Below are positions 32,071 through 47,978 of a stretch of 64,000 bases of DNA, piece after piece. Positions within the stretch are counted from its first letter, which is position 1. The number at the start of each line of letters is the position of its first letter. The stretch is taken from positions 1-64,000 of the forward strand of contig NZ_JAFEMD010000012.1 in assembly GCF_016892765.1 (NCBI RefSeq), given 5' to 3'. Under the pieces are notes generated by a model. That model was not told the DNA's origin, did no database searches, and saw only the letters and a list, made by a program, of their open reading frames with translations. Source of the DNA: Microvirga arvi (GTDB taxonomy: Bacteria > Pseudomonadota > Alphaproteobacteria > Rhizobiales > Beijerinckiaceae). The position numbers and the translations under genes are program-made.

Positions 32071-33372
32071 TTGAGTGAGGACCCGGTCTTGCCGAATTCC
32101 AGCGTCGCCTACGCACCTCTCGCCCGCCATGCCATGGCCTACATTCTCGCTGGCGGGCGCGGCAGTCGCTTGATGGAGCTGACTGATATCCGTGCCAAGC
32201 CCGCCGTCTATTTCGGCGGTAACACGCGGATCATCGATTTTGCCCTGTCGAATGCCTTGAACTCCGGTATCAGGCGCATCGGTGTTGCAACCCAGTACAA
32301 GGCCCATAGTCTCATCCGCCATCTCCAGAGGGGCTGGAACTACTTTCGCGCAGAGCGGAATGAAAGCTTCGATATCCTCCCGGCCAGCCAGCGTGTCTCC
32401 GAGACCATGTGGTACGAAGGCACGGCCGATGCGGTGTATCAGAACATCGACATCATCTCGAGCATCGATCCCGAATACATCATCATCCTTGCCGGTGATC
32501 ACGTGTACAAGATGGATTACGAGATCATGTTGCGGCAGCACGTCGACACAGGAGCCGACGTGACCGTCGGCTGCCTCGAGGTGCCGCGCATGGAGGCCGT
32601 TGGTTTCGGCGTCATGGCGATCGACGAGACGGACCGCATCATCTCCTTCCTCGAAAAGCCCGCCGATCCTCCGGGCATGCCCGACAATCCGGACAAAGCC
32701 CTGGCCAGCATGGGCATCTACGTCTTCAACACCAGGTTCCTCTTCGACCAGCTGCGGCGCGATGCGGAGACGCCCGGCTCGAACCGGGATTTCGGCAAGG
32801 ATATCATCCCCTATCTGGTTCAGCACGGCAAAGCCGTGGCGCATCGCTTCACGACATCCTGTGTACGGTCGGGTGCCGAAGCGGGCGGGAGTGAAGCAGA
32901 GGCCTATTGGCGGGACGTGGGAACGGTCGATGCGTATTGGGAGGCCAATATCGACCTCACGGCGATCGTTCCGTCTCTCGACCTTTATGACCGGGACTGG
33001 CCGATCTCCACGTTTTCGGAGACCTGGCCGCCGGCGAAATTCGTTCATGACGAAGAAGGACGGCGCGGGCATGCCATCAACTCGCTCGTCTCCAGCGGCT
33101 GCATCGTGTCGGGCGCAGCCCTGCGCCAGTCGCTCGTGTTCACGGGCGTGCATCTCCATTCCCATGCCTCCGTCGAGGGAGCCGTGATTCTCCCCTACGT
33201 CGACATCGGAAAGGGGGCGAGGCTGAAGGATGTCGTGATCGATCGCGGTGTGCGTATCCCGGACGGGCTGGTCGTGGGCGAGGATCCCGAGGAGGATGCC
33301 AAGCGCTTCCGCCGTACCGAGAGGGGCATCTGCCTCATCACGAAACCGATGATCGAGAGATTGGCGGAATGA
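32071..33372 (+). CDS. glgC: Glucose-1-phosphate adenylyltransferase
   Basis: This 433-residue enzyme makes ADP-glucose from glucose-1-phosphate and ATP, the committed step of bacterial glycogen synthesis. It has the nucleotidyltransferase signature LAGGRGSRL, the catalytic Asp region [10 protein letters not shown], the glucose-1-phosphate site FLEKPA, and a C-terminal left-handed beta-helix ([20 protein letters not shown]). The TTG at 32071 is taken as start because AGGTGG lies 6 bases upstream and no earlier start exists in frame. The ATG of glgA overlaps its stop (ATGA), so the two are translationally coupled. Confidence 0.93.
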
Positions 33373-34817
33373 AGCCTCTGAACGTTCTGTCAGTAGCGTC
33401 AGAGGTCTTTCCCATCATCAAGACAGGCGGACTGGCCGACGTCGCCGGAGCCCTGCCGGCTGCACTGGCCCGCGAGGACGTGACGGTCGTCACGCTCGTC
33501 CCAGGCTATCCGGCGGTGCTGAAGGCTCTGCAACGCTCAGAGGTCGTGCATCACTATCCGAGCTTCTTCGGCGGAACGGCCAATCTGCTGTCCGGGAGGG
33601 CTGGGGGCCTCGACCTGTTCGTCATCGATGCCGCCCATCTTTTCGAGAGGCCAGGTTCTCCTTATCTCGCGCCGAACGGCAAGGACTGGCCGGACAATGC
33701 CCGGCGCTTTGCGGCGCTTTCCCGAGCCGCCGCCGATATCGGACAGGGGCTGGCGCCAGGTTTCATGCCGGACATCATTCATGCCCATGACTGGCAGGCA
33801 GGCCTCGTTCCAGCCTACCTGAGCCTCACCGACAGCCCACGCCCTGGAACGATCATCACGATCCACAACATCGCCTTCCAAGGCATCTTTCCAGCGGATC
33901 TGCTGTTCGAGCTGGGATTGCCGGCGAGCACGTTCACGGTCGACGGGGTGGAGTATTATGGTCAGATCGGTTTCCTGAAAGCGGGCCTTCAACTCGCAGA
34001 TCACATCACCACGGTTTCTCCGACTTACGCCAAGGAAATCCAGACGCCCGAAGGGGGGATGGGACTCGACGGGTTGCTGCGCGCGCGCTCGCATGTCGTC
34101 TCCGGTATTCTCAACGGCATCGACGATAAGGCCTGGGATCCCGCCACGGATGCCCATCTCGCGCGGACTTACAGCCGTGACCATCTTGAGGTCCGGGCGG
34201 TCAACAAGGCCGCCTTGCAGAAGCGCCTGGGATTGAAGCAGGACCCGGAGTCGATGCTCTTCGGCGTCGTGAGCCGGTTATCCGAACAGAAGGGTCTTGA
34301 TCTTGTGCTCGGAAGCCTTGCGAGACTTCTTGCCGACGGCGCGCAGTTGGCTCTGCTGGGCGCTGGAGACAAAACCCTCGAGGACAGCTTCAAGACCGCC
34401 GGCATCGTCTATCCCGGTCAGGTCGGGTGCTTCTTCGGCTATGACGAAGCGCTGGCTCACCTGATCCAGGGCGGCAGCGACGCCCTGCTCGTACCGTCGC
34501 GGTTCGAGCCCTGTGGCCTGACGCAGCTTTGCGCCATGCGTTATGGCAGCGTCCCCATCGTCTCTCGAGTCGGCGGACTGGCGGACACGATCATCGATGC
34601 CAACGAGATGGCCATCGCCATCGGTGCCGCAACGGGATTCCAGTTCGGCCCTGTCGCACTCAGTCCTGCGATCGATGCCTTCGAGCGAGCGAAAGCCCTG
34701 TGGCGCGACAGGAGCACCTGGCAGCGCCTGCAGACGAACGGCATGAGCGCCGACGTGAGCTGGCGCCGTCCTGCAAAGCAATATGCCGGCCTCTATCGCT
34801 CCTGCCGTCCAACGTGA
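33369..34817 (+). CDS. glgA: Glycogen synthase, copy 1
   Basis: This 482-residue GT5 enzyme transfers glucose from ADP-glucose to the growing glucan. The ADP-glucose motif KTGGLADV is intact (Lys18), as are TIHNIAFQG, and the C-terminal catalytic Glu and nucleotide region [17 protein letters not shown] and VGGLADTI. It is the canonical partner of GlgC, overlapping its stop by 4 bases. A second, more divergent GlgA is encoded at 46452-47978. Confidence 0.94.
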
Positions 34818-34829
34818 AGCCAACCGGTA

Positions 34830-34860
34830 GAGCGCCTTATCAGGCGCTCCTCCTCTTTTC
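34830..34860 (+). terminator. Terminator of glgCA overlapping the glgX stop codon
   Basis: A perfect 8-bp stem GAGCGCCT/AGGCGCTC (34830-34837 and 34842-34849) with loop TATC is followed by CTCCTCTTTTC. It lies 13 bases after the glgA stop and contains the glgX stop codon (34840-34842) in its loop and right arm. Confidence 0.75.
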
Positions 34861-37047
34861 AGGCTTCGGCTGCTTGGCGGGCTTCAGCTGGAACAACAGC
34901 AGAGAGTGAGCCGTGACCGTGTAGACCTTGCCGAAGCCGAATTCCGTCGGGGTTTCCAGATCCGGCTGGTTCGTATCGATGTGGCACATCCATGCCTCGC
35001 CGCCCACCACCTCCGGCAACGTGCATTTCACCACGTCGTGATAGGCGTTCAGGATCAAAAGAAGCGTCACGTCCGTACCGCGCCTGCGGATGCCGGTCGG
35101 CTGGGCGCGGCCATCCAGCAGGATGCTGATGCACCGGGCATTCGCATCCTCCCAGTGCTCGGGGGTCATCTCATCGCCGGAGGGCGTGAGCCAGGTTATG
35201 TCCTTGACGTCGAGTTCCTCGTTGTAGACACCTGACAGGAAACGCCCGCGCCGCAGGATCGGCAGGTTCTGGCGCAGCTGGATCAGCTTGCGGGTGAATT
35301 CAAGAAGTTCGACTCCGTCCTCGTCGATTCTCTCCCAGTTGATCCAGGAGATCTCGTTGTCCTGGGCATAGGCATTGTTGTTGCCCTGCTGCGTCCGGGC
35401 GAACTCGTCGCCGGCCAGCAGCATGGGCGTGCCTTGCGAGAAGAGCAGGGTGGCCAGCATGTTGCGGATCTGGCGCTGCCGCACCGCGCGGATCTCGGGA
35501 TCGTCGGTCGGACCTTCGACGCCATGGTTGAAAGAGAGGTTATGGGCGTGTCCGTCCTTGTTGTCCTCTCCGTTCGCCTCGTTGTGCTTCTCGTTGTAGG
35601 AGACGAGATCGTTGAGCGTGAAGCCGTCATGGGCCGTGATGAAGTTCACCGAGGCCCAGGGCCGGCGCCCGCGCTTGTTGAAGATGTCGGCCGACGCGGT
35701 GATGCGGGAAGCGAGTTCCGGCAACTTGCCGTCCTCACCTTTCCAATAGGCGCGGACCGTGTCGCGGTAGCGGTCGTTCCACTCCGCCCATCCGGGAGAG
35801 AAACGCCCGACCTGGTAGCCGCCGGGGCCGCAATCCCAGGGCTCCGCGATGAGCTTGACCTGGCTGAGGGCTGGATCCTGCCGGCAGGTGTCGAGAAAGC
35901 GGCCGTCCTCCTCGAAGCCATGCGGCTCCCGCCCTAGGATCGTCGCGAGATCGAAGCGGAAGCCGTCGATCTGCACCTCCTGCGCCCAGTAACGCAAGGA
36001 GTCCGTGACCATCTGGAGCACGCGGGAATGGCTGAGATTGACCGTGTTTCCCGTGCCCGTGTCGTTGATGTAGTAGCGCTTGTCGGGGGCCAGCCTGTAA
36101 TAGGAGGCATTGTCGATGCCCTTGAACGACAGGGTCGGTCCCAGCTCATTGCCTTCGGCCGTGTGGTTGTAGACCACATCCAGGATCACCTCGATGCCCG
36201 CGTCATGGAGATGGCTCACCATCTCCTTCACTTCATTGACGAAGGGCGTTGCGAGATAGCGCGGTTGAGGCGCGAAGAAACCGATCGTGTTGTAGCCCCA
36301 GTAGTTCCGCAATCCCTTCTCGATGAGGTAGCTGTCATCTACGAAGGCATGGATAGGCAGCAACTCGACGGCTGTGACGCCGAGGTTCTTGATGTACTCG
36401 ATCACCTCATGCTGCATGAGGCCCGAGAAGGTGCCGCGCAGCTCTTTTGGAACAGCCGGGTGCTGCATGGTGAAGCCGCGCAGATGGGTCTCATAGATGA
36501 TCGTGCGCTCCCAGGGGATCTGCGGCCGGCGCACACGCCCCCAGGTGAAAGCCGACTCGACGACCCGGCATTTCGGCATGAACCGCGCGCTATCCCGCTT
36601 GTCGAAGGACAGATCCGCATCGGGCGATCCGATCGTGTATCCGAAGAGGGCGGGGTTCCAGGTCAGATCGCCGATAAGCTGCTTCGCGTAAGGATCGAGC
36701 AGGAGCTTGTTCGGGTTGAAGCGGTGGCCCGCTGTGGGCTCATAGGGGCCGTAGACACGATAGCCATAGGTCGTGCCGGGCCGGGCATCCGGCAGATAAC
36801 CATGCCAGACCTCGTCCGTGTATTCCGGAAGTTCGATCCTCTCCAGTTCCTGACGGCCCTCCAGGTCGAACAGGCAGAGCTCCACCTTCGTGGCGTTGGC
36901 GGAGAAGAGCGCGAAGTTGACGCCCAAGCCATCCCATGTGGCACCGAGAGGATAGGGCAGTCCTTCTCTGACACGCGATGTGCGCCTCACATTCGGAGCG
37001 ACGACCTGAGATGGTGGAGCTTCGCGGATGTCGACCTTGTCGTTCAT
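34840..37047 (-). CDS. glgX: Glycogen debranching enzyme
   Basis: This 735-residue GH13 isoamylase-type enzyme cleaves alpha-1,6 branches of limit dextrins. It has an N-terminal CBM48 domain (about 25-130) and a catalytic barrel with IEVILDVVYNHTAEG, the nucleophile Asp in DGFRFDLATI, the acid Glu in KLIAEPWDCG and the transition-state Asp in FITAHDGFTLND. A C-terminal beta domain ends in a basic tail (PEKRRSA). The start at 37047 is chosen over a TTG at 37059; the ribosome-binding site is weak (GAGA). It is convergent with glgA and 81 bases downstream of glgB on the same strand. Confidence 0.93.
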   Translation of the reverse strand: MNDKVDIREAPPSQVVAPNVRRTSRVREGLPYPLGATWDGLGVNFALFSANATKVELCLFDLEGRQELERIELPEYTDEVWHGYLPDARPGTTYGYRVYGPYEPTAGHRFNPNKLLLDPYAKQLIGDLTWNPALFGYTIGSPDADLSFDKRDSARFMPKCRVVESAFTWGRVRRPQIPWERTIIYETHLRGFTMQHPAVPKELRGTFSGLMQHEVIEYIKNLGVTAVELLPIHAFVDDSYLIEKGLRNYWGYNTIGFFAPQPRYLATPFVNEVKEMVSHLHDAGIEVILDVVYNHTAEGNELGPTLSFKGIDNASYYRLAPDKRYYINDTGTGNTVNLSHSRVLQMVTDSLRYWAQEVQIDGFRFDLATILGREPHGFEEDGRFLDTCRQDPALSQVKLIAEPWDCGPGGYQVGRFSPGWAEWNDRYRDTVRAYWKGEDGKLPELASRITASADIFNKRGRRPWASVNFITAHDGFTLNDLVSYNEKHNEANGEDNKDGHAHNLSFNHGVEGPTDDPEIRAVRQRQIRNMLATLLFSQGTPMLLAGDEFARTQQGNNNAYAQDNEISWINWERIDEDGVELLEFTRKLIQLRQNLPILRRGRFLSGVYNEELDVKDITWLTPSGDEMTPEHWEDANARCISILLDGRAQPTGIRRRGTDVTLLLILNAYHDVVKCTLPEVVGGEAWMCHIDTNQPDLETPTEFGFGKVYTVTAHSLLLFQLKPAKQPKPEKRRSA

Positions 37048-37128
37048 TGAAAATCTCAAAAATCCAAGCGGAGCAAAAGGTACTTTCTATCAACGCACAA
37101 GCTTTGTGGAGGTCCCAGCCAAGCTCAA

Positions 37129-39375
37129 CTATATCTTCGCTTCCAGGGCCTCCGGGTCGAGAACAAGGATCAGCGTCGCAAGGGGCGGAATCGTCAGGGT
37201 GAGCGAGCAGGGTTGTCCGTGGCTCGGCGTGTCCACCGCCATCACCCCTCCGAGGTTGCCCACATTGGCGCCGCCATAAAGAGCGGCATCCGTATTGACG
37301 GCCTCGCGGTAAAACCCCGGTGATGGAACACCGATGCGATAGGTTTCACGTGAAACAGGAGTGAAGTTCGAGACGACGACGGCGAGGGAATTCTCATCCT
37401 CGCCCCGCCGAAGCCAGGCGATGACGCTGTTGTCCCGATCGTCCGAAACGATCCATTCAAAACCCTTCGTCTCACAATCCCGCTCATGCAAGGCGGGAAT
37501 GGAGCCGTAGGCCTCGTTCAGGTCCTTGATAAGGTTCTGGACGCCCTTGTGGTAGGAGTTATCAAGAAGATGCCAATCGAGACTGGTATCGTGATCCCAC
37601 TCCCGCTCCTGCGCGAACTCGCCGCCCATGAACAGGAGCTTCTTACCGGGATGCCCCCACATGAAGCCGAAATAGGCGCGAAGATTGGCGAAGCGCTGCC
37701 ACTCGTCACCCGGCATCTTGCCGATGAGGGAGCCCTTGCCGTGAACGACCTCGTCATGGCTGAGGGGCAGGATGAAGTTCTCCGAGAAGGCGTAGAGAAG
37801 ACCGAATGTCAGATCGTGATGATGGTAGCGCCGGAAGACCGGATCCTTGCTGATGTAACGCAAGGTGTCGTGCATCCAGCCCATGTTCCACTTGAAGCCG
37901 AAGCCGAGGCCCCCCGTGTAGGTTGGCTGCGAGACGCCGGGCCAAGCGGTCGATTCCTCCGCAATGGTGACGGCGCCCGGAGACGCTGCATAGGCGACCT
38001 CGTTCATCTTGCGGATGAAGTCGATGGCACTGAGGTTCTCGTTGCCGCCGTAGCGGTTGGGAATCCACTCGCCGGGCTTTCGCGAGTAGTCGAGATAGAG
38101 CATGGATGCCACCGCATCGACGCGCAACCCATCGAGATGGTAGCGCTCCAGCCAGAAGCGGGCATTCGCCACCAGGAAGCTCATCACCTCCTGGCGCTCG
38201 AAATTGTAGATGTAAGTGCCCCAATCCTGATGGAAGCCGAGCCGCGGATCGGCATGCTCGTAGAGATGCGTCCCGTCGAAATAGGAAAGCCCGTGCGGAT
38301 CGTTGGGGAAATGCGCAGGCACCCAGTCGAGGATGATGCCGATCCCTGCGGCATGCGCCGCCTCGACGAAAGCGGAAAAATCCTCCGGGGTGCCGAAGCG
38401 GCTGGTGGGGGCATAGAGCGAGATGGGCTGGTAGCCCCATGATCCATCGAACGGGAATTCCGTGATCGGCAGCAGCTCGATATGGGTGAAGCCGAGGTTC
38501 TTCACATAGGGAATGAGCCGTACGGCCAGTTCGCGATAGGTGAGATACCGGTTTCCTTCCTCCGGCACCCGCGCCCAGGAGCCGAGATGACACTCGTAGA
38601 TCGACATCGGTTCTTTGCGGTGGTTCCGGGTCGATCTTGCTGCCATCCACTCCGCATCCCGCCACTCGAATTGCGGCGGCTTTTTGAGAATGGAGGCCGT
38701 TGCCGGCGGATGCTCAGCGGCAAAGGCGATCGGGTCCGCCTTGAGCGCAAGGAGATTTCCCTGCAGGCCGATGATTTCGAATTTGTAGCGCTGGTCAGGC
38801 GTCACATCCGGAATGAATAATTCCCAGATGCCGCCTTCGTGGCGTCGCCGCATGGGGTGGCATCGTCCATCCCACGAGTTGAAATCCCCGACGACGCTGA
38901 CGCGGCGGGCATTGGGGGCCCAGACCGTGAAGAGAAAGCCCTCAATTCCGCCGAGATCAAGGTGATGGGCGCCGAGCTTCGTGTAGACGGCATCGCTCGT
39001 CGGATCGCCGATCTGCATGAGATCGTCATGGGAGAGGAACGTGCCGAAACTGTAGGGATCGTGAAGAAGCTCGGCGCGGCCCTGGCGCTCAATCCGCAGC
39101 CTGTAATCGGGACGCTCAGAGGCGCTAACCGTGCCAACGAAGAGGCCTTCGGGAAGTCGCCGTTCCATGGAGGCGAGAACCGTTTCCCCATCGCGGCCCA
39201 CCACCGCAGCTGTTTCGGCATCTGGCAGGATCGCGCGGATCTCCCATCGTCCGGGTGCGATCTCATGGGGGCCGAGAATGGAGAAGGGATCGCCCGAATT
39301 GACGATGTCGGCAACCGAGTGCGGCTCGGCGGGGCGCGTCGTTGCGCTCTGCGATCCACCTCGGTGCTGATCCAT
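37129..39375 (-). CDS. glgB: 1,4-alpha-glucan branching enzyme
   Basis: This 748-residue GH13 enzyme introduces alpha-1,6 branches. It has two N-terminal CBM48-like modules (about 25-215) and a catalytic barrel with HIELLPITEFPFDGSWGYQ, the nucleophile Asp in DGLRVDAVASMLYLDYSR, the acid Glu in IAEESTAWPGVS and the LSHDEVVHGKGSL loop. The start at 39375 is preferred because AGGGG lies 8 bases upstream; an ATG six codons earlier is possible. It is transcribed with glgX. The intergenic stretch between this gene and the MalQ-TreY fusion (155 bases) holds no obvious promoter, so it may belong to one long operon with treZ and the fusion. Confidence 0.94.
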   Translation of the reverse strand: MDQHRGGSQSATTRPAEPHSVADIVNSGDPFSILGPHEIAPGRWEIRAILPDAETAAVVGRDGETVLASMERRLPEGLFVGTVSASERPDYRLRIERQGRAELLHDPYSFGTFLSHDDLMQIGDPTSDAVYTKLGAHHLDLGGIEGFLFTVWAPNARRVSVVGDFNSWDGRCHPMRRRHEGGIWELFIPDVTPDQRYKFEIIGLQGNLLALKADPIAFAAEHPPATASILKKPPQFEWRDAEWMAARSTRNHRKEPMSIYECHLGSWARVPEEGNRYLTYRELAVRLIPYVKNLGFTHIELLPITEFPFDGSWGYQPISLYAPTSRFGTPEDFSAFVEAAHAAGIGIILDWVPAHFPNDPHGLSYFDGTHLYEHADPRLGFHQDWGTYIYNFERQEVMSFLVANARFWLERYHLDGLRVDAVASMLYLDYSRKPGEWIPNRYGGNENLSAIDFIRKMNEVAYAASPGAVTIAEESTAWPGVSQPTYTGGLGFGFKWNMGWMHDTLRYISKDPVFRRYHHHDLTFGLLYAFSENFILPLSHDEVVHGKGSLIGKMPGDEWQRFANLRAYFGFMWGHPGKKLLFMGGEFAQEREWDHDTSLDWHLLDNSYHKGVQNLIKDLNEAYGSIPALHERDCETKGFEWIVSDDRDNSVIAWLRRGEDENSLAVVVSNFTPVSRETYRIGVPSPGFYREAVNTDAALYGGANVGNLGGVMAVDTPSHGQPCSLTLTIPPLATLILVLDPEALEAKI

Positions 39376-39530
39376 TCTAGCATCCCCTTTCATGGTCCGG
39401 TCTCTTAAGACATGAGCGGGGCCGTGGCCCCGATGCTTCTATGTGATCCTTTTCAGAAGAACTTCATTATGGGGCAAGCCTTGGCGCAGACCAGAAGTCG
39501 GCAGGCCAATAAAGGCCGCGAGCTTCCTGC

Positions 39531-42500
39531 CTAACGGGAAGTAACATCGGCTGCAGCCAGCCTGAGCACCAGGAAAGGGATTTCCTCCATAAGATCCGCA
39601 ACCTTCATTCGATCCGTTCCGATGGAGATCATCTCTCCCGTTATTACGTTCAGCCAGCGCCCTTGAGGCAGAGCAAGGCTCGTGTCCTCCCAGCTCTCCG
39701 CACCAATGGCATTTCCGTCCATGCCGTTCCAGAGACGGGGAACGACCACAGCAAGGGCATCGCTGCCGTTCCATCTGATATAGCCGAGAAGACGGAAGGC
39801 CTGAGCGCCCTCGGCATTCAAAGCTTGGTAGCCGCCTTCGGCATACAATTCAGGGGCCTCCGCCCGGTCGCGAAGCAAATCGGAGATGATCCGCTGCTTG
39901 ATCCGTCCGTCCGTCCAGCTCTTCATGAGAGTTTTGAGCGACTCCCGCATCTCCAAAGCCTTGGCGCGGGCGGCGTAGTCGACCGGGCGCCGGTTGTCCG
40001 GATCGACCAGCGAGAAATCCCAGAACTCCGTACCCTGATAGATGTCTGGTACTCCCGGCAGTGTCATCTTGAGGATCGTGCGGGACAATCCGCTCAACAT
40101 TCCCAGAGTGGAGAGGCGCCAAACCAGAGGGCCGAAGTGCTCAAGGAATGAGCCTTTCGGGTCGAGCATGGCTCTCAGGAGCTTGAGAGAAGCCTCCTCA
40201 TAGGCTTCGTCCGGATCGATCCAGCTTGTGTGCCGTTTGGCCTCTCGAAGCGCCTTCGTGAAGTAGCCCTCCATCCGTTCGCGGAATGAGTCGAGCGTCC
40301 TGCGATCCAACTTCTCCAGAAGCTCCAATGGCCAGGCGCCGAGGAGGGCTTGGAATAGAATGACTTGGTCGTTCGCGTCCGGCGCGGGCAAACCGCCGAT
40401 TTCGGTCAGGTGGGGAGCCGCCACCTCCCGCCAGAGATCGAGAGCTTTCGCCCATTCCTCCGGGATCTCGGAGAGCGCGAGAAGCCTGATCCGCGCATCT
40501 TCGCCGCGCTTGGTGTCGTGCGTGGCAGTGGCGAGCATGGCGTGCGGCCAATTCCGGGCTCGATCCGCATTCGCCCGATGGAAGTCCGCTGCGGACAAGC
40601 CAAAATGACCGGGATCGCCGCCGACCTCGTTGAGCGCGATCAGGCGCCCGTAGCGATAGAAGAGCGTATCCTCCAGGCTCTTGGCCATGACAGGGCCTGT
40701 GAGCTGCTGGAAGCGCCGGCGGAACCGGCGGACGTCGCCAGGATCGCCGCACTCTGCCCGACCGAGAATCGCTGAGGCAACGAAGTCATGAACGCTGGTG
40801 TCAGGAAGCTCGCTCGACTGCTTGGCCGCACCGATCGTCTCTTCGATCAGACGCACATCTTCCTGCGCCGGTTCATCGTCCTGGATATAGCTGCGGTAGA
40901 CCGGGAAGGCGGCGACGATCTCGACCAGAGCCTGGCGCAGGGCGAAGCTCGTGTAGTCGCGCGTGCGGCGGCTGGCATCGGTGACGAGCTTGATGTCAGA
41001 GACAAGGGCCTCAAGTTCACTGGCGAAGTTCTTTTCGGTGATTTCGACCTTGGCCTGCCTCAGAAGCTCCTCATAGCTGCCCTGAAGACCGGATGCATCC
41101 CGGTAGATCTGCTCGAATGTATCGCCTGCATTGGAATCGATCAGCACGCCGTCGATCACGTTGAGCGCATCGTAGCCTGATGTTCCGGCGACGGGCCAGG
41201 GAGGCAGCTCCTCGCCGGGTTCGAGGATCTTCTCGACCACGACATAGAAGCCGGATCCGACCTTGTGCTGGAGCGCTCGGGCATAACCCTCCGGATCGGC
41301 AAGGCCGTCGATATGATCGATCCGCAGGCCATGGATCAGACCCTCATCCACCAGACGGACAATGAGCTCATGCGTTTTTTCGAAGATCTCCGGGATCTCC
41401 ACCCGCATGCCGGCCAGGGTGTCGATGTCGAAGAAGCGGCGGTAGTTGATGTCGCTCGACGCCACCCGCCAATAGGAGAGCCGATAGGCTTGTGCCTCCA
41501 GGAGACGATGAAGAGTGTTGAAGCTCTTCGGATCGTCCGGCGAGCCGTTGACGGTCGCAATCGCGCTGTCGATGGCTTTGCGCAATGCTGATGAGTCTGC
41601 AACGGCCACGGCCAGTTGGCGCTTCAGGGTTTCCGCCTGTTCCGGTATGGCGGTGCCGTGACCTGCCTTGGCCAAGAAACGAAGCTGCTCGGTCAGCGCG
41701 CGCAGGGCTCCGGCCTTCGCAGAATCGCTGAGAGCTGCTATGGCATGGTCAAGCACCGCCGGATAGGTGGTGGGACAGACCGGGAAGCGGTGCTCCCAAT
41801 GCCAGACGCTGAATGATCCTTCCACGGGATCGAACTTCAGCTGCAGCTCACCTCTTTCGAGAACCTCGCCGTAGAGACCGCCCAGCGACGGCACAATGAG
41901 CTTGCCCTCAGTGCCCGGGCGCTTCCAGTCGATGTCGAACGCCTCCGCCACAGGGGAGAGCGGTCCCCATTCCAGCACGGAAAGCCACCAGCCGTTGGAC
42001 TGGCCGCCGACGCCCATGTGGTTCGGCACGATGTCGAGCAGAAGCTTGAGGCCTTGCTCCCTGAGAGCATCCGAGAAGCGGCGGAAACCTTCCTCTCCAC
42101 CGAGCTCCGGATTGATCGTGGAATGGTCGACGATGTCATAACCGTGCGTGGAGCCGGGGGCAGCCGCCTGGATGGGTGAGGAATAGACATGGCTGATCCC
42201 CAGCTTCGCCAGATAGGGCACGATCTTCACGGCATCGTCGAAGGTGAAGTCCTTATGAAACTGGAGCCGGTAGGTGGCGCGGGGCGGCGGGCCGGCGAGG
42301 ATGTTCCGGCGCGAGCGAACATCCCGACCCTCTTCCGCCAGAACGACGGCGAGTTTCGCCATCAGACTCCCGGGGGATGCGATCTCCTCGATCGTGTTCG
42401 AGAGCCGTCTGCGCCAGTTGGGATGCCCTACATCCATGCCTGGCATGTTGGTCTGGTTCAACTCACCCGATGCATCCTCCATCTGCAGGGTTGTGAGCAC

Positions 42501-44381
42501 GGAAGAGGTGCGTGCGAGATAGCGGATCGTTGCATCCAATGGCGGCTCTTCAGGCACGTGCGGCGAGGACAGGAGACCTTCCTCCGCGAGGGCCTTGGCG
42601 AAATGCTCCTTGTCCGCCTTCCGCGCAGCACGCTCCCGGGCGGCAGTCTTCGGATCGAAGATGCCGAGGGTCTGGCGCAGGTCGACATCGAGACCGCGCC
42701 ACCAGCCGATGAAGGTCGGCAGGTCGTGGGTGGTGATGACGGCAAGGGCCGAGCGAGGGTACTGGCTCGGTTTCTTGAAGGCAGCCCCATCCCGCTCGAA
42801 GGGCAGCACCCGGTAGCTGAGGACGCCCGATTCCATGATGGCGTCCGAGAAGCCCTCCGGCGCAGTGCCGAGGTCCTCCGCGATGACCAAGCATTGGGCG
42901 CGATGGCTCTCCACGCGCAGAACCGCCAGCATGGCTTCGAACGGATAATCAACATAGGCGCCCTGCGAGGCGGGGGCGCCGGATGGGATCAGGAAGAGGC
43001 GCTGAAGCTGAAAGGCATGGTCGATGCGGATGGCACCGGCGTGGCGCATGTTGGCGGCAACGAGATCGCGGAAGGCAGCCAGACCCTGCTCTTCCAGGGT
43101 CAGAGGATTGAAGGGCGGCAGGCCCCAATCCTGGCCCTGGGGGCCGAGCGGGTCGGGTGGGGCACCGATGGAAAGCCTGGGGGCATAGCGCTCTGGCGTC
43201 GCCCATATCTCTGATCCGCCACCATCGGCGCCCACGGCGAGGTCCCGGTAAAGGCCGATGGGAAGACCAGCGGCTCGGGCGCGGGCGGCTGCTTGGCCCA
43301 ACTGATGGTCGGCAAGCCATTGCAGCCAGGCATGGAAGGCGACACGCTCCGCTTGGTCCAGGCGGAAGCGCCGGACCGCTACGGAATGGCCCGAGCGATA
43401 ATCTTCCGGCCATTCGCCGATCCAGAACCGGCTCTGCTCGTAAAAATACTCGGAAAGCGCTTCAAAGGTCGCGTGCGCCTCCAGGGCCTCGCCGCCCGCA
43501 CGTCGAAAGGCCTCGAAGGCGGTATGGTCGCCCGATGTCCGGAAATAGGTCCAGAGACTATCGAGGAGAGGGCGCTTGATTGCCCAGACCTCAGCATAAT
43601 TGATGAGTTGGGCGTTCCGGAGACGGGCGAGGCGCGCCTGCACCGACTGGTCTTCGAGAAGTTGCGCGGCGCCGCCTTCAGTGAAGCCATCAACATCGGT
43701 CAGGTCGATATAAATCGGCTCCAGGAAGAGACGCGAGGAAGGGGAATAGGGCGAGATCTTCGAGCGATCAGACGCGAAGAGCGCGTGGACTGGGCTAAGA
43801 CCCAGGAAAGCGCCGCCAGCCCGGCCGATGCTCTCCGCCGCAAGTGCCACATCGGAATAATCGCCGATCCCGAAGTCGCGCTCCGCGCGCAGGGAGTAGA
43901 TCTGAGCGGATGCGCCCCAGAGCCGTGCATTACCTTTCAGGACGTCCGGCTCCCAGCATTGCGCGGGAGCAGCAATGACCGTCGTCTCGTTGCGCCCCAG
44001 ACGGAGGCGGTGATAACCCATCGGCAGCGCCGGAATGTCGAGGGACATGCTGCCCTTATCAATCGTGCCTTCGTGGACTGCGCCGTTCTCTTCGATAAGG
44101 ATCCAATCCTGTCGCCCGATGCGCGCACGAAACTTGATCGTCGAGGCTCTCTCGGCTTCGAGCGTAACAACGGCCGGGATCGGCCCCGTCTTCAGTCTCT
44201 CCAGTCGGGAGAGGCTCTCCTGTGCCCCCTGTTCGGAGGTGACGTCGAGCCCGAGGGCAGCGAGCAGGGCCTTCCGGGTTTCCTCGGTCGTCTCGACACG
44301 TTTGCCGAAAGCATCGGTGTAGTCCGGCGACATACCAACGAGCGCAGCCATCCGCTCCAGCAGAGCATCCAGCTTGCTCAT
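39531..44381 (-). CDS. Fused 4-alpha-glucanotransferase and malto-oligosyltrehalose synthase (MalQ-TreY)
   Basis: This 1616-residue protein joins two complete GH enzymes. Residues 1 to about 690 are a GH77 amylomaltase (MalQ) with nucleophile Asp in AIRIDHAFQLQRLFL, acid Glu in LVIAEDLGT and TTHDLPTFIGWW. Residues about 698 to the end are a GH13 TreY with RLQFHKDFTFDDA, LLLDIVPNHMGVGGQ, nucleophile Asp in LRIDHIDGLADPEGY and Glu in VVEKILEPGEELPPW. MalQ redistributes maltodextrin units; TreY turns the reducing end into a trehalosyl group. The start at 44381 is chosen because the ATG overlaps the treZ stop (ATGA) and AAGGGAA precedes it; the frame extends to 44468. Both parts keep their catalytic residues. 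Confidence 0.94.
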   Translation of the reverse strand: MSKLDALLERMAALVGMSPDYTDAFGKRVETTEETRKALLAALGLDVTSEQGAQESLSRLERLKTGPIPAVVTLEAERASTIKFRARIGRQDWILIEENGAVHEGTIDKGSMSLDIPALPMGYHRLRLGRNETTVIAAPAQCWEPDVLKGNARLWGASAQIYSLRAERDFGIGDYSDVALAAESIGRAGGAFLGLSPVHALFASDRSKISPYSPSSRLFLEPIYIDLTDVDGFTEGGAAQLLEDQSVQARLARLRNAQLINYAEVWAIKRPLLDSLWTYFRTSGDHTAFEAFRRAGGEALEAHATFEALSEYFYEQSRFWIGEWPEDYRSGHSVAVRRFRLDQAERVAFHAWLQWLADHQLGQAAARARAAGLPIGLYRDLAVGADGGGSEIWATPERYAPRLSIGAPPDPLGPQGQDWGLPPFNPLTLEEQGLAAFRDLVAANMRHAGAIRIDHAFQLQRLFLIPSGAPASQGAYVDYPFEAMLAVLRVESHRAQCLVIAEDLGTAPEGFSDAIMESGVLSYRVLPFERDGAAFKKPSQYPRSALAVITTHDLPTFIGWWRGLDVDLRQTLGIFDPKTAARERAARKADKEHFAKALAEEGLLSSPHVPEEPPLDATIRYLARTSSVLTTLQMEDASGELNQTNMPGMDVGHPNWRRRLSNTIEEIASPGSLMAKLAVVLAEEGRDVRSRRNILAGPPPRATYRLQFHKDFTFDDAVKIVPYLAKLGISHVYSSPIQAAAPGSTHGYDIVDHSTINPELGGEEGFRRFSDALREQGLKLLLDIVPNHMGVGGQSNGWWLSVLEWGPLSPVAEAFDIDWKRPGTEGKLIVPSLGGLYGEVLERGELQLKFDPVEGSFSVWHWEHRFPVCPTTYPAVLDHAIAALSDSAKAGALRALTEQLRFLAKAGHGTAIPEQAETLKRQLAVAVADSSALRKAIDSAIATVNGSPDDPKSFNTLHRLLEAQAYRLSYWRVASSDINYRRFFDIDTLAGMRVEIPEIFEKTHELIVRLVDEGLIHGLRIDHIDGLADPEGYARALQHKVGSGFYVVVEKILEPGEELPPWPVAGTSGYDALNVIDGVLIDSNAGDTFEQIYRDASGLQGSYEELLRQAKVEITEKNFASELEALVSDIKLVTDASRRTRDYTSFALRQALVEIVAAFPVYRSYIQDDEPAQEDVRLIEETIGAAKQSSELPDTSVHDFVASAILGRAECGDPGDVRRFRRRFQQLTGPVMAKSLEDTLFYRYGRLIALNEVGGDPGHFGLSAADFHRANADRARNWPHAMLATATHDTKRGEDARIRLLALSEIPEEWAKALDLWREVAAPHLTEIGGLPAPDANDQVILFQALLGAWPLELLEKLDRRTLDSFRERMEGYFTKALREAKRHTSWIDPDEAYEEASLKLLRAMLDPKGSFLEHFGPLVWRLSTLGMLSGLSRTILKMTLPGVPDIYQGTEFWDFSLVDPDNRRPVDYAARAKALEMRESLKTLMKSWTDGRIKQRIISDLLRDRAEAPELYAEGGYQALNAEGAQAFRLLGYIRWNGSDALAVVVPRLWNGMDGNAIGAESWEDTSLALPQGRWLNVITGEMISIGTDRMKVADLMEEIPFLVLRLAAADVTSR

Positions 44382-46201
44382 GCCGACATTCCCTTCATGA
44401 TGATTGCCGTCCATGGGAGAAGCTGAAGTCCCGAGCCTGCCGACACGATGCTTGTTGAACTCGACCAAAGCACGCGAGCATCCTCATCCATGATCCCGCT
44501 CACGGGGCCATCGCTGAAGTTGGCGAGCAGGCGGAGCGTGCCGGAGGCAAAGGTCCAGGTCACATCGAGGGCTTTCTCAGAGGAAATCGTAATGCGGGAA
44601 CCATGGTACTCGCTCTTCAGGAGCGGTACGATATCTGTTTGCCTCAGATCGAGCAGACGACGTGTTTGCGACAGCGTCTCTCTGTATGGCGGTAGCTCAG
44701 TCTCCGACCAGTCGAGCCGCGATCGCTCGAATGTCGTGCGGTCCGTCGGATCAGGTATGCGCTGGGACATTTCCGGATCCGTGAAGGCCTTGAACCGCTT
44801 GAACTCGCCGCGGCGGCCGTCGCGAACCGCCTTCGCCAGATCCGGGTCGTTCTCGAAATCGACAAAGAACTGGAATGGCGTCGATGCCGACCATTCCTCA
44901 CCCATGAAGATCAAGGGAATCTGCGGCGAAAGCAGGAAGATGCCTTGCGCGAGAGACAAACGCTCCGGCGGTATTAGATGCGACAGGCGTTCACCGAAGG
45001 CGCGGTTCCCGACCTGATCATGGTTCTGGAGGAAGGACACGAACGCTGTCGGGTGCAGGTGACCCGAGGGTTCGCCGCGGACAACGCCGCTCTTATGCGG
45101 TGACCGATCGCCTTGATACGCAAAACCTTCCGCCAGGGCCCGCCCGAGATGCTCGAGCGGACGGTTGGCGTAATCCTCGTAGTAGCCTTCGTTCTCGCCG
45201 GTCAGCAGGGCATGCCACGAATTGTGGATGTCATCGGCCCATTGCGCCGTGTGCAGCCTCGGCTGCTGCTCCCCGTCACGGCCGAGCCAGCGTGCCTGGT
45301 TGGCTTCGTTCTCGAGCACCAGGTGAATCTGGCGTCCGGGCAGGGCTTCGCGGATTCGGTTTGCCAGTTCCTCGATGAAGTGGGGCTCGCCGTCGTCCAC
45401 GATGGCATGAACCGCATCGAAGCGAAGCCCGTCGAAGTGAAATTCTTCCAGCCAGTAAAGCGCGTTGTGGAAGAAGAAGTCGCGCACGATACGGCTGCCT
45501 TCGCCGTCCACGTTGATACCCGCTCCCCACGGTGTCGGGTGGCGCTCCGTGAAGAAGGTCTTGGCATAGGCATGGAGATAGTTCCCGGATGGTCCGAAGT
45601 GGTTGTAGACCACATCGAGGAAAACCATCAGGCCGAGCGCATGTGCACGGTCGACGAGGCGCTTCAGATCGTTCGGGCTCCCATAGGCGGCATCGGGCGC
45701 ATAGGGGAGGACACCGTCATATCCCCAGTTCCGCTGCCCCGGAAACTCGCCGATGGGCATGAGCTCGATGGCCGTCACACCGAGGTCGCGCAGATTTTCG
45801 AGCTTCGCCATCAAGCCGGCATAGGTGCCCTCTGGTGTCGCCGTTCCGACGTGGATCTCATAAAGAACAGCTTCCTCCCACGGACGCCCCATCCAGGATG
45901 TGTCGGACCAGGAATATGACCCGGGATCGACTATGAGGCTCAGGCCGTGGACGTCATCAGGCTGGAATCGTGACGCCGGATCGGGCACAACAAGATTGCC
46001 ATCGATCTTGTAGCCGTAACGACTGCCTGCGCGAGCATCTTGCGAGACGAGGCGATACCAGCCTTCGTCATCGGATGTCATCGGCAGCTCGGCATTGTTC
46101 AGCACGAGCCCTACCTCGTGAGCCGTGGGGGCCCACAGAGCAAAGCGAACACCATCGGGGGTTATCTCAGCCCCAAAGGGCATGGAGTGAACGCGCCGCA
46201 T
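44378..46201 (-). CDS. treZ: Malto-oligosyltrehalose trehalohydrolase
   Basis: This 607-residue GH13 enzyme releases trehalose from malto-oligosyltrehalose made by TreY. It has an N-terminal CBM48-like domain (about 1-95, starting MPFGAEI) and a barrel with VMVFLDVVYNHFGPSGNYL-like sequence, nucleophile Asp in FDGLRFDAVHAI, acid Glu in HLVLENEANQ and FLQNHDQVGNRA. It is first in its operon, with the fusion gene overlapping its stop. The start is supported by GGAG 5 bases upstream. An exact EcfG-type promoter match lies just upstream, so it is probably induced by general stress. Confidence 0.94.
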   Translation of the reverse strand: MRRVHSMPFGAEITPDGVRFALWAPTAHEVGLVLNNAELPMTSDDEGWYRLVSQDARAGSRYGYKIDGNLVVPDPASRFQPDDVHGLSLIVDPGSYSWSDTSWMGRPWEEAVLYEIHVGTATPEGTYAGLMAKLENLRDLGVTAIELMPIGEFPGQRNWGYDGVLPYAPDAAYGSPNDLKRLVDRAHALGLMVFLDVVYNHFGPSGNYLHAYAKTFFTERHPTPWGAGINVDGEGSRIVRDFFFHNALYWLEEFHFDGLRFDAVHAIVDDGEPHFIEELANRIREALPGRQIHLVLENEANQARWLGRDGEQQPRLHTAQWADDIHNSWHALLTGENEGYYEDYANRPLEHLGRALAEGFAYQGDRSPHKSGVVRGEPSGHLHPTAFVSFLQNHDQVGNRAFGERLSHLIPPERLSLAQGIFLLSPQIPLIFMGEEWSASTPFQFFVDFENDPDLAKAVRDGRRGEFKRFKAFTDPEMSQRIPDPTDRTTFERSRLDWSETELPPYRETLSQTRRLLDLRQTDIVPLLKSEYHGSRITISSEKALDVTWTFASGTLRLLANFSDGPVSGIMDEDARVLWSSSTSIVSAGSGLQLLPWTAIIMKGMSA

Positions 46202-46232
46202 CGAAACTCCGGAATTACGGGAAGCACTTGCG

Positions 46233-46257
46233 AACGAGGATGGTCAAGCAATGTTCC
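46233..46257 (-). promoter_or_regulatory. EcfG-type (general stress response) promoter of treZ operon
   Basis: On the minus strand the sequence reads GGAAC (46257-46253), a 16-base spacer, then CGTT (46236-46233). This is an exact match to the alphaproteobacterial EcfG consensus GGAAC-N16/17-CGTT. The treZ ATG is 32 bases beyond the -10 element, leaving a short leader of about 25 bases. Confidence 0.78.
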
Positions 46258-46367
46258 GGCAGAGAAAAGAAAAACAGCCAAGCTCACAATCGTGCATCAC
46301 TGATCGACTGGCATTCTGCGGCCAAGCTGGCTTGAAGGACTAGTCAAAAATTTTCTGATTTTTCTGT

Positions 46368-46393
46368 GGAACTAACCCTGGGGCAAGTGAGTT
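46368..46393 (+). promoter_or_regulatory. EcfG-like promoter of the second glycogen synthase gene
   Basis: GGAAC (46368-46372), a 17-base spacer, then AGTT (46390-46393). The -35 is exact and the -10 keeps the conserved GTT. It lies 58 bases before the glgA2 ATG, back to back with the treZ promoter in the same intergenic region. Confidence 0.6.
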
Positions 46394-46451
46394 AAAAGCC
46401 CGACTTCCTGTGGCGCGGGGGAGTCGATGGGGACCGCGCCTTTGAGCTAAT

Positions 46452-47978
46452 ATGCTGGATTCACTTCACCTGGACGCCGGTTCGGCTGTCTTGCCCTTGG
46501 CGCATGCCGAATTGCAAAGCGGCTCCCACGCTTCCATTTCGATCAAACGCCGTCAGTCAATTCTTTTTGTCACATCTGAGATCGCCGATTACATCAAGGC
46601 CGGCGGCCTCGGTGAGGTATCGGCGGCGTTGCCGCGCGCGCTTCGCCACCACTACGATGTTCGCATTCTCATTCCCGGATACCGTCAGGTTCTGTCGCAG
46701 ATTGAAGACGTGGAGGAGATCGCCCGCCTGCCGGCCTCATTCGGCATTCCAGCCTGCGGCCTCGGCCGCGGCACCACGAAGGACGGCCTGACGGTTTATA
46801 TTCTCCTATGTCCGGAACTCTATGACCGTGACGGTTCGCCCTACGTCGACAGCTTCGGCGCGGACTGGGGCGACAATGACATTCGCTTCGCACGCCTGGG
46901 GCTTGCAGCGGCCGACATCGCCTGCGGCTACGGCGATCCTTTATGGCGCGCCGATCTCCTGCACCTCAACGATTGGCCCTCCGGCCTCGCATCGGCGTAC
47001 CTTGCCTGGCGTGGGCAACGCATCCCGACGATCCTCACCATTCATAATCTTGCTTATCAGGGCAACTTCGACAGGGGGCGCCTGTCCCATCTCGGCATTC
47101 CCGATGCGGCGTTTCAGGTCAACGGTGTCGAGTTCTATGGCAAGCTCTCGTTCCTGAAAGCCGGCATCTACTACTCGTCCCATATCACGACGGTAAGCTC
47201 CACCTATGCCAAGGAGATCACGCGTCCGGAATTCGGCTGCGGCCTCGATGGGCTTCTCAGAACGCGAGCCGAAGAGGGACGTCTCGACGGGATCATCAAC
47301 GGCATCGATGCAAGTTGGGACCCGAGCACAGACCCTTACCTGGTCAGCCGTTTCTCGGCTGAGAATTGCCGAGGCAAGCGCGCTAACGCAAACACCGTGC
47401 GGAGAAGTTTCGGGCTGAACCTGTCATCCGGACCGCTCTTCGCGGTGGTGTCCCGTCTGGTTCATCAGAAGGGCGTGGATCTCGCCATCTCGGCGGCAGA
47501 AACCATTGTTTCGCAGGGCGGGCAGATTGCCGTCATCGGTCAGGGAGAGCCTCGCTTCGAAGCTGCATTGAAATCGCTCGCCAACCGTCATTCCGGATCC
47601 GTCGGTGTTAAGATTGGCTATGATGAGGGAGATGCCCGCCGCATGTATGCAGGCAGCGATTTCCTGCTCATGCCTTCGCGGTTCGAGCCCTGCGGCCTCA
47701 GCCAGATGTACGCGCAGAGGTTCGGCTCATTGCCGATCGCACATAAGACGGGTGGGTTGGCCGACACCATCGAGGATGGCGTCACAGGCTTCCTTTTCGG
47801 CGAGCCTTCGCTCAATCGGTTTATGGACGCCATCAGAAGAGGGCTCGACACCTTCCGCTCGACATCCCGTCTGACGGCCATGCGCCGTGCTGCGATGAAG
47901 AGGCCTCATGGCTGGGATCGCTCTGCGTCCCGCTATCAGGAGGTTTATGATCGTGCCTGCCAAGCGGCCTTGGCTTAA
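46452..47978 (+). CDS. Glycogen/starch synthase family protein, divergent copy 2
   Basis: The 508-residue GT5 family protein has an extra N-terminal extension of about 32 residues. The ADP-glucose motif has changed from KTGGLADV to KAGGLGEV (Lys49 kept), while TIHNLAYQG and the C-terminal [17 protein letters not shown] and TGGLADTIEDGVTGFLF are conserved. It should therefore still be an alpha-1,4-glucosyltransferase, possibly with altered donor or primer preference; that is inference. It has its own likely stress promoter and is divergent from treZ, separate from the housekeeping glgC-glgA pair. Confidence 0.88.
   Translation: MLDSLHLDAGSAVLPLAHAELQSGSHASISIKRRQSILFVTSEIADYIKAGGLGEVSAALPRALRHHYDVRILIPGYRQVLSQIEDVEEIARLPASFGIPACGLGRGTTKDGLTVYILLCPELYDRDGSPYVDSFGADWGDNDIRFARLGLAAADIACGYGDPLWRADLLHLNDWPSGLASAYLAWRGQRIPTILTIHNLAYQGNFDRGRLSHLGIPDAAFQVNGVEFYGKLSFLKAGIYYSSHITTVSSTYAKEITRPEFGCGLDGLLRTRAEEGRLDGIINGIDASWDPSTDPYLVSRFSAENCRGKRANANTVRRSFGLNLSSGPLFAVVSRLVHQKGVDLAISAAETIVSQGGQIAVIGQGEPRFEAALKSLANRHSGSVGVKIGYDEGDARRMYAGSDFLLMPSRFEPCGLSQMYAQRFGSLPIAHKTGGLADTIEDGVTGFLFGEPSLNRFMDAIRRGLDTFRSTSRLTAMRRAAMKRPHGWDRSASRYQEVYDRACQAALA

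Follow-up and report, generated by a model that had tools for sequence, protein, structure and literature searches.

Two glycogen synthases are encoded by some Hyphomicrobiales, and the locus described here offers a concrete, testable answer as to why. In the 64,000-nt stretch of Microvirga arvi DNA analysed (the window), a classical glgC-glgA pair is accompanied by a second glycogen synthase gene, glgA2, which is transcribed divergently from the trehalose gene treZ. The region between treZ and glgA2 carries a sequence on each strand that resembles the promoters of EcfG, the alphaproteobacterial general stress sigma factor. Upon stress, phosphorylated PhyR takes the anti-sigma protein NepR off EcfG. 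Two points are addressed below: whether the two sequences are promoters of this kind, and what a glycogen synthase would contribute next to enzymes that release trehalose.

Genes of the locus

The genes and candidate promoters, with positions in the window and with model scores and cut-offs in brackets, are as follows:

32071..34817, plus strand: glgC-glgA1, the classical pair, given for contrast and lying outside the module; without an EcfG-type site
34840..37059, minus strand: glgX, debranching enzyme (TIGR02100, 1073.9 bits, cut-off 640.9)
37129..39393, minus strand: glgB, branching enzyme (NF003811, 1017 bits, cut-off 741)
39531..44468, minus strand: malQ-treY fusion, 4-alpha-glucanotransferase / malto-oligosyltrehalose synthase (NF011077, 2160.8 bits, cut-off 2148)
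44378..46201, minus strand: treZ, malto-oligosyltrehalose trehalohydrolase (TIGR02402, 722.7 bits, cut-off 538.8); ATG at 46201
46233..46257, minus strand: putative EcfG-type promoter of treZ, GGAAC-N16-CGTT; conserved letter for letter in 20 of the 21 aligned regions
46368..46393, plus strand: putative EcfG-type promoter of glgA2, GGAAC-N17-AGTT; GGAAC-N16/17-NGTT in 21 of 21 regions
46452..47978, plus strand: glgA2, GT5 glycogen synthase of the NF001901 type (815.3 bits, cut-off 649); ATG at 46452

GlgA2 is distinct from GlgA1. A GlgA of the GT5 family is encoded together with treZ, malQ, treY and glgX, which is the gene set that marks the GlgA-TreYZ route. The longest frame of malQ::treY overlaps the end of treZ; because the NF011077 match starts only at residue 35, the gene may in fact start near the treZ stop. 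The frames of treZ and malQ::treY adjoin or overlap, and intervals of 137 and 69 nt precede glgB and glgX, respectively. A simple scan of the minus strand of treZ-malQ::treY-glgB-glgX revealed no sigma-70-like site, and the terminator-like stems found there were weak and fewer than in shuffled sequences. For these reasons glgB and glgX probably belong to the treZ transcription unit, and the minus-strand site would serve treZ, malQ::treY, glgB and glgX.

Two EcfG-type sites between treZ and glgA2

The preliminary description had reported GGAAC-N16-CGTT on the minus strand and GGAAC-N17-AGTT on the plus strand, and both were borne out letter for letter. In the minus-strand site, GGAAC (46257-46253) and CGTT (46236-46233) are separated by 16 nt, and GGAAC starts 56 nt 5' of the treZ ATG. 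In the plus-strand site, GGAAC (46368-46372) and AGTT (46390-46393) are separated by 17 nt, and the distance from the start of GGAAC to the glgA2 ATG is 84 nt. The EcfG consensus reported for R. etli, GGAAC-N16-CGTT, covers the minus-strand site, and the form reported for S. melonis, GGAAC-N17-20-GTT (PMC6599016), covers both.

GGAAC-N16/17-NGTT occurs only three times on both strands of the window. Two of these matches are the treZ and glgA2 sites; the third (30712, minus strand) lies within a reading frame. At the rate of the M. arvi genome, approximately 0.012 matches would be expected in the 250-bp treZ-glgA2 region, and the Poisson probability of two or more is approximately 7e-5. This figure is suggestive only, as the genome has many intergenic regions and a reversed-pattern control gave more matches than the pattern itself. 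In the 6.46-Mb genome (both strands), the reversed control, itself imperfect, yielded 379 matches versus 332 for GGAAC-N16/17-NGTT, and 304 versus 215 for the N15-18-CGTT form. The bulk of the genomic matches may be fortuitous. Since the reversed control was the commoner, counts in a single genome cannot decide the matter and were rejected as proof. It is conservation, not motif count, that lifts the treZ and glgA2 sites above chance.

Conservation within Microvirga

TreZ identity of at least 71% was found at 20 loci (L001-L018, L025 and L040), all from Microvirga. The alignment comprised 21 intergenic regions, that of the window and those of 20 Microvirga loci, with pairwise identities of 44-87% (median 60%). 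The treZ site was exact in 20 of the 21 regions, the exception being L013 with CGAAC, and CGTT followed at 16 nt in all of them. On the glgA2 side, GGAAC was present in 21 of 21 regions, with a spacer of 17 nt in 16 and of 16 nt in five; the -10 element read AGTT in 13, CGTT in seven and GGTT in one. When spacers from 6 to 35 nt were scanned, the treZ strand gave 20 matches at 16 nt, two at 12 nt and none elsewhere, and the glgA2 strand gave five at 16, 16 at 17, one at 22 and one at 34 nt.

Mean conservation was 0.99 for the nine treZ positions and 0.94 for the nine glgA2 positions, compared to 0.69 for the remaining 232 positions. By this measure the treZ template ranked first among its 226 placements in the intergenic region. 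The glgA2 template ranked only 12th of 225, because the glgA2 leader is conserved as well. All pairs of a 5-mer and a 3-mer (spacing 8-29) that were kept in at least 20 of the 21 regions fell on the treZ site, on either strand.

For the genus as a whole, 45 loci were reduced to 32 by merging identical 250-nt upstream sequences. At up to 400 nt from the aligned start of glgA2, the glgA2-strand site was found at 31 and the treZ-strand site at 27 of these 32 loci; the sole miss for the former was a second, more distant GlgA2-type paralogue (L181, genome G150). Scanned from treZ, the site was present at 23 of 25 loci, among them the distant second treZ of genome G154 (L211). The treZ site starts 53-68 nt before the gene (22 close homologues with the site), and the glgA2 site 81-94 nt before the gene (loci aligned from residue 1).

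The two genes are not always neighbours. In genome G149, glgA2 and treZ are convergent and separated by approximately 7 kb, and each retains its site (L177 and L209); this persistence after separation argues that each site would serve its own gene. In G154, the site was kept at glgA2 (L180) and was absent at the close treZ homologue (L210). No site was found at glgA1 within the genus, for which five loci were covered (0/5, L182-L186 only).

The PhyR-NepR-EcfG system of the genome

In the M. arvi genome, the phyR gene adjoins nepR and a sigma factor gene. PhyR matched NF006623 with 367.8 bits (cut-off 240), and NepR matched PF18557 with 66.4 bits (cut-off 25.7), the equivalog NF051865 scoring below its cut-off. 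The sigma factor exceeded the cut-off of NF009199 (253.5 versus 219 bits), and its best match, NF009192, fell just below its own (306.7 versus 307). No model bears the name EcfG; the name given to the sigma gene rests on its place beside nepR and phyR. In total, eight EcfG-like sigma genes (L212-L219, 55-100% identity to the nepR-linked one) and four NepR matches above the cut-off were found in this genome.

The phyR/nepR-ecfG locus (L080, 3.1 kb) contains six GGAAC-N16/17-CGTT sites arranged in three divergent pairs, where 0.16 matches would be expected even for the looser NGTT form. The central pair is directed toward nepR and phyR. Its nepR-side site is located inside nepR when the longest frame is taken, and the nepR family match begins further in, for which reasons nepR probably starts later than its longest frame. 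Further divergent pairs of exact EcfG-type sites, at 512-581 and 2880-2927 of L080, flank the phyR/nepR-ecfG genes. For the M. arvi genome, the locus serves as a positive control of the consensus, and its three divergent pairs suggest that back-to-back placement of EcfG sites is nothing unusual.

The earlier proposal that treZ and glgA2 have EcfG-type promoters is well supported: the sites are conserved, canonically spaced and suitably placed, and genes for PhyR, NepR and EcfG-like factors are present. Very probably, therefore, the treZ-glgA2 region would contain two divergent EcfG promoters, the sigma factor dependence and the start sites being predicted from the DNA sequence.

Which EcfG uses them is a separate matter. 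Another EcfG paralogue than the nepR-linked one might recognise the two sites, in which case the trigger would differ from the canonical cascade; the promoter reading itself would be unaffected. The eight homologues described above provide candidates, and both canonical and non-canonical EcfG factors have been reported for R. etli. The treZ and glgA2 sites match those at the phyR/nepR-ecfG locus, however, and we consider the involvement of a different paralogue rather unlikely.

Other genera and plasmids

GlgA2-type proteins from outside Microvirga showed identities of 53-69%; in a rapidly built tree of aligned segments, GlgA2-type proteins were separated from the glgC-adjacent GlgA1 type with full local support. 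In the 600 nt upstream of 27 such GlgA2 loci, GGAAC-N16/17-NGTT was found on the coding strand at 13 and on the opposite strand at two, with 0.4 expected per strand at the own-genome rate; gene starts were taken from the alignment in these genera, and some sites may sit near or inside the coding start. All 13 coding-strand matches survived when those overlapping an opposite-strand match were dropped. The remaining 14 loci lacked a coding-strand match over this distance.

Flanks of up to 8 kb were analysed for 20 of the 27 GlgA2 loci and for 20 GlgA1-type loci. Within 500 nt, a coding-strand site was present at 10 of the 20 GlgA2 genes and an opposite-strand site at none. At the GlgA1-type loci, the site was found at 0/18 GlgA1, 0/19 GlgC and 1/14 GlgB genes. 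The difference between 10/20 GlgA2 and 0/18 GlgA1 genes corresponds to a Fisher p of approximately 5e-4, in which independence is overstated as the genomes are related. Two loci fetched as GlgA1-type (L135 and L142) matched GlgA2 better (41-44%) and were excluded from the GlgA1 count; at one of the two, a match was found 13 nt ahead of the aligned start. The absence of such a promoter from the glgC-glgA pair, as stated in the preliminary description, thus holds in the window and in relatives.

At four of the 20 GlgA2 loci (L114, L115, L117 and L120), treZ is again divergent from glgA2, approximately 2 kb away, with matches at both genes. A gene of the GH13 alpha-amylase family lies between them at L115, L117 and L120, in the direction of glgA2. 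L117 and L120 are weak cases, since the glgA2-side match is located inside the GH13 frame; at L120, additionally, the treZ-side match overlaps an opposite-strand match.

The treZ gene itself behaved differently outside Microvirga. A coding-strand match within 400 nt was found at only three of 38 loci (L043, L052 and L054), and at the latter two it was overlapped by an opposite-strand match. The other 35 of the 38 loci had no match on either strand with spacers of 15-18 nt allowed; the titles of 20 of the 38 do not assign them to the alphaproteobacteria, outside which EcfG is not expected. Judged from these sequences, the treZ-side site is mainly a Microvirga feature, and about half of the GlgA2 genes elsewhere are without a recognisable site.

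On plasmids, a coding-strand site was found at two of five GlgA2-type genes, those of Methylobacterium aquaticum (L223) and Bosea (L224); L220, L221 and L227 had none. The three plasmid treZ genes (L220, L225 and L226) were likewise without a coding-strand site. L220, from Bradyrhizobium japonicum, has a divergent glgA2-treZ pair, in which glgA2 matches in two pieces. On the plasmid of Bosea sp. Tri-49 (L224, 5745-5941), glgX and glgA2 are divergent, and EcfG-type matches occur on both strands. The two opposite matches use the same bases, so that only one of them may be real, and the region was rejected as a second back-to-back arrangement.

Comparison with known systems

EcfG-type control of such genes is already known in related bacteria, and the present locus is a further, well-conserved case. 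No published title on a treZ-glgA2 locus was among the matches listed; it may still have appeared in print earlier.

The glgA gene on pSymB of S. meliloti, which we take to be the gene called glgA2, has GGAAC-N17-TGTT 90 nt before its ATG. Its product is closer to the GlgA1 (47%) than to the GlgA2 (39%) of the window, and no treZ, treY, glgB or glgX match was found in the surrounding 13.5-kb stretch. As this GlgA is nearer to GlgA1 and yet its gene carries such a site, different glgA paralogues may have come under the same control. In S. meliloti, glgA2 and glgX2 are reported among the genes dependent on RpoE2 (EcfG) (PMC2651895, citing Sauviac 2007). The window resembles the regulon so described in that a second glycogen synthase gene and glgX would stand under an EcfG-type sigma factor.

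For Sphingomonas melonis Fr1, an EcfG-dependent treY-malQ-treZ-glgX cluster has been described (PMC6599016). TreYZ trehalose genes are thus combined with glgX there as well, under EcfG control. The available part of that report names no glgA in the cluster and treats the glgX upstream region, which was tested, as a putative indirect target, whereas candidate sites of the direct type are found at treZ and glgA2 in Microvirga.

In P. aeruginosa PAO1, the operon glgA-treZ-malQ-treY-glgX is reported to encode a GlgA that makes linear glucan, which is converted to trehalose via TreY/TreZ; deletion of GlgA removes the downstream metabolites (PMC8084333). The association of GlgA with treZ, malQ, treY and glgX is shared with the window. 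PAO1 is reported to have a single operon, no glgC and UDP-glucose as donor. The window, by contrast, has a divergent glgA2, a malQ-treY fusion and a nearby glgC-glgA1 pair, with EcfG as the candidate sigma factor.

Trehalose genes of Bradyrhizobium diazoefficiens reported to be under EcfG are ots and treS (PMC8092242). This species differs in that OtsAB is the important route: treZY mutants reportedly did not differ from the wild type in symbiosis and continued to accumulate trehalose (PMC8092242). In R. etli, glgX and a treY-like gene have been described as induced by salt.

A probable glucan-to-trehalose route

Taken together, the two predicted divergent EcfG promoters probably switch on a single route that leads from NDP-glucose through glucan to trehalose. 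Upon stress, PhyR~P would remove NepR and set EcfG free. RNA polymerase with EcfG would then transcribe treZ leftward, probably along with malQ::treY, glgB and glgX, and glgA2 rightward. GlgA2 would polymerise NDP-glucose into alpha-1,4-glucan, the chains would be reshaped by GlgB, GlgX and MalQ, and TreY/TreZ would release trehalose from this glucan.

The preliminary description had proposed that the stressed cell converts glucan to trehalose and at the same time produces a dedicated glycogen synthase, separate from the glgC-glgA pair. This framing is probably mistaken, as the GlgA of P. aeruginosa reportedly supplies the glucan for TreY/TreZ. Since that GlgA is treZ-linked and feeds TreY/TreZ, GlgA2 is quite likely the first step of the TreY/TreZ trehalose route, the direction of flux being read from analogy.

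Alternatively, the sites may be EcfG-dependent and GlgA2 may make a separate storage glycogen under stress, with TreYZ drawing on the GlgA1 pool. The presence of glgB in the probable treZ unit would allow a branched polymer, and high expression of glgA2, glgB2 and glgX of S. meliloti has been tied to glycogen accumulation after osmotic shock (PMC4167512). Against this stand the divergent glgA2-treZ pairs that recur in other genera and the reported supply of TreYZ by the treZ-encoded GlgA of P. aeruginosa; we regard separate storage as unlikely. The distribution of the genes does not separate the two readings: of 31 genus genomes, 24 encode GlgA2, GlgA1 and TreZ together, and seven encode none of the three.

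The inventory of the genome also bears on where the glucan may go. Despite two glycogen synthases, no glycogen phosphorylase match was found in the M. arvi genome, and no TreS was found above the cut-off, the weak matches being the window's own GH13 genes, far below it. The visible exits from glucan in this genome are consequently GlgX with MalQ, and TreYZ, as far as gene content indicates. This argument is not general, since 16 of the 31 genus genomes have a phosphorylase match. OtsA-like genes are present in the M. arvi genome, the best of them just under its cut-off. Of three OtsA-like loci analysed, L155 and L156 showed no EcfG-type match, and the single match at L154 lies over 1 kb away from the gene. 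A leading role of TreYZ in the trehalose supply is plausible but unproven.

That both sites are chance matches and expression is given by unrelated promoters is highly improbable: the genome-wide count does not exceed the reversed control, but the fixed spacing is conserved among regions of 44-87% pairwise identity, and the sites are present across the genus and strand-biased in other genera.

If GlgA2 does feed TreY/TreZ, two glycogen synthases might be kept, one for growth and storage and one for stress. GlgA1 stands beside glgC without a stress promoter, in contrast to GlgA2, which seemingly shares control by the general stress sigma factor with the enzymes that release trehalose from a glucan. 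More tentatively, GlgA2 could represent a stress-linked lineage of the Hyphomicrobiales with trehalose, not storage glycogen, as end product, in which the site stays with the gene when the locus is rearranged, Sinorhizobium having recruited a GlgA1-like paralogue independently. Besides Microvirga and several more genera of its family, the reading would take in Methylobacterium aquaticum and perhaps Bosea; we consider it possible without favouring it.

Other features of the intergenic region

No known RNA family was found in 46150-46560 at E-values up to 1. The glgA2 leader contains an inverted repeat, GGCGC...GCGCC (46412-46440), which occurs in 21 of 21 Microvirga regions. An RNA hairpin is not claimed, as the arms were invariant in the 12 aligned sequences and the fold of the window's leader was not better than that of shuffled sequences (z +1.21). 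A conserved short leader peptide before glgA2 was likewise rejected, since start and stop codons vary (alignment by eye).

The sequence CGTTCGCAAGTG (46225-46236, minus strand) comprises the treZ -10 element and the stretch just after it, and is kept in 18 of the 21 Microvirga regions. Its conservation exceeds the need of the promoter alone.

Between the promoters, two copies of AGCTTGGC are located on the minus strand (46277-46284 and 46321-46328). The window contains nine copies compared to 3.1 expected, a number reached by none of 100 shuffled sequences. Copies outside the larger reading frames include at least those at 37118, 46277, 46321 and 49207. The sequence is possibly a regulator site or a small repeat.
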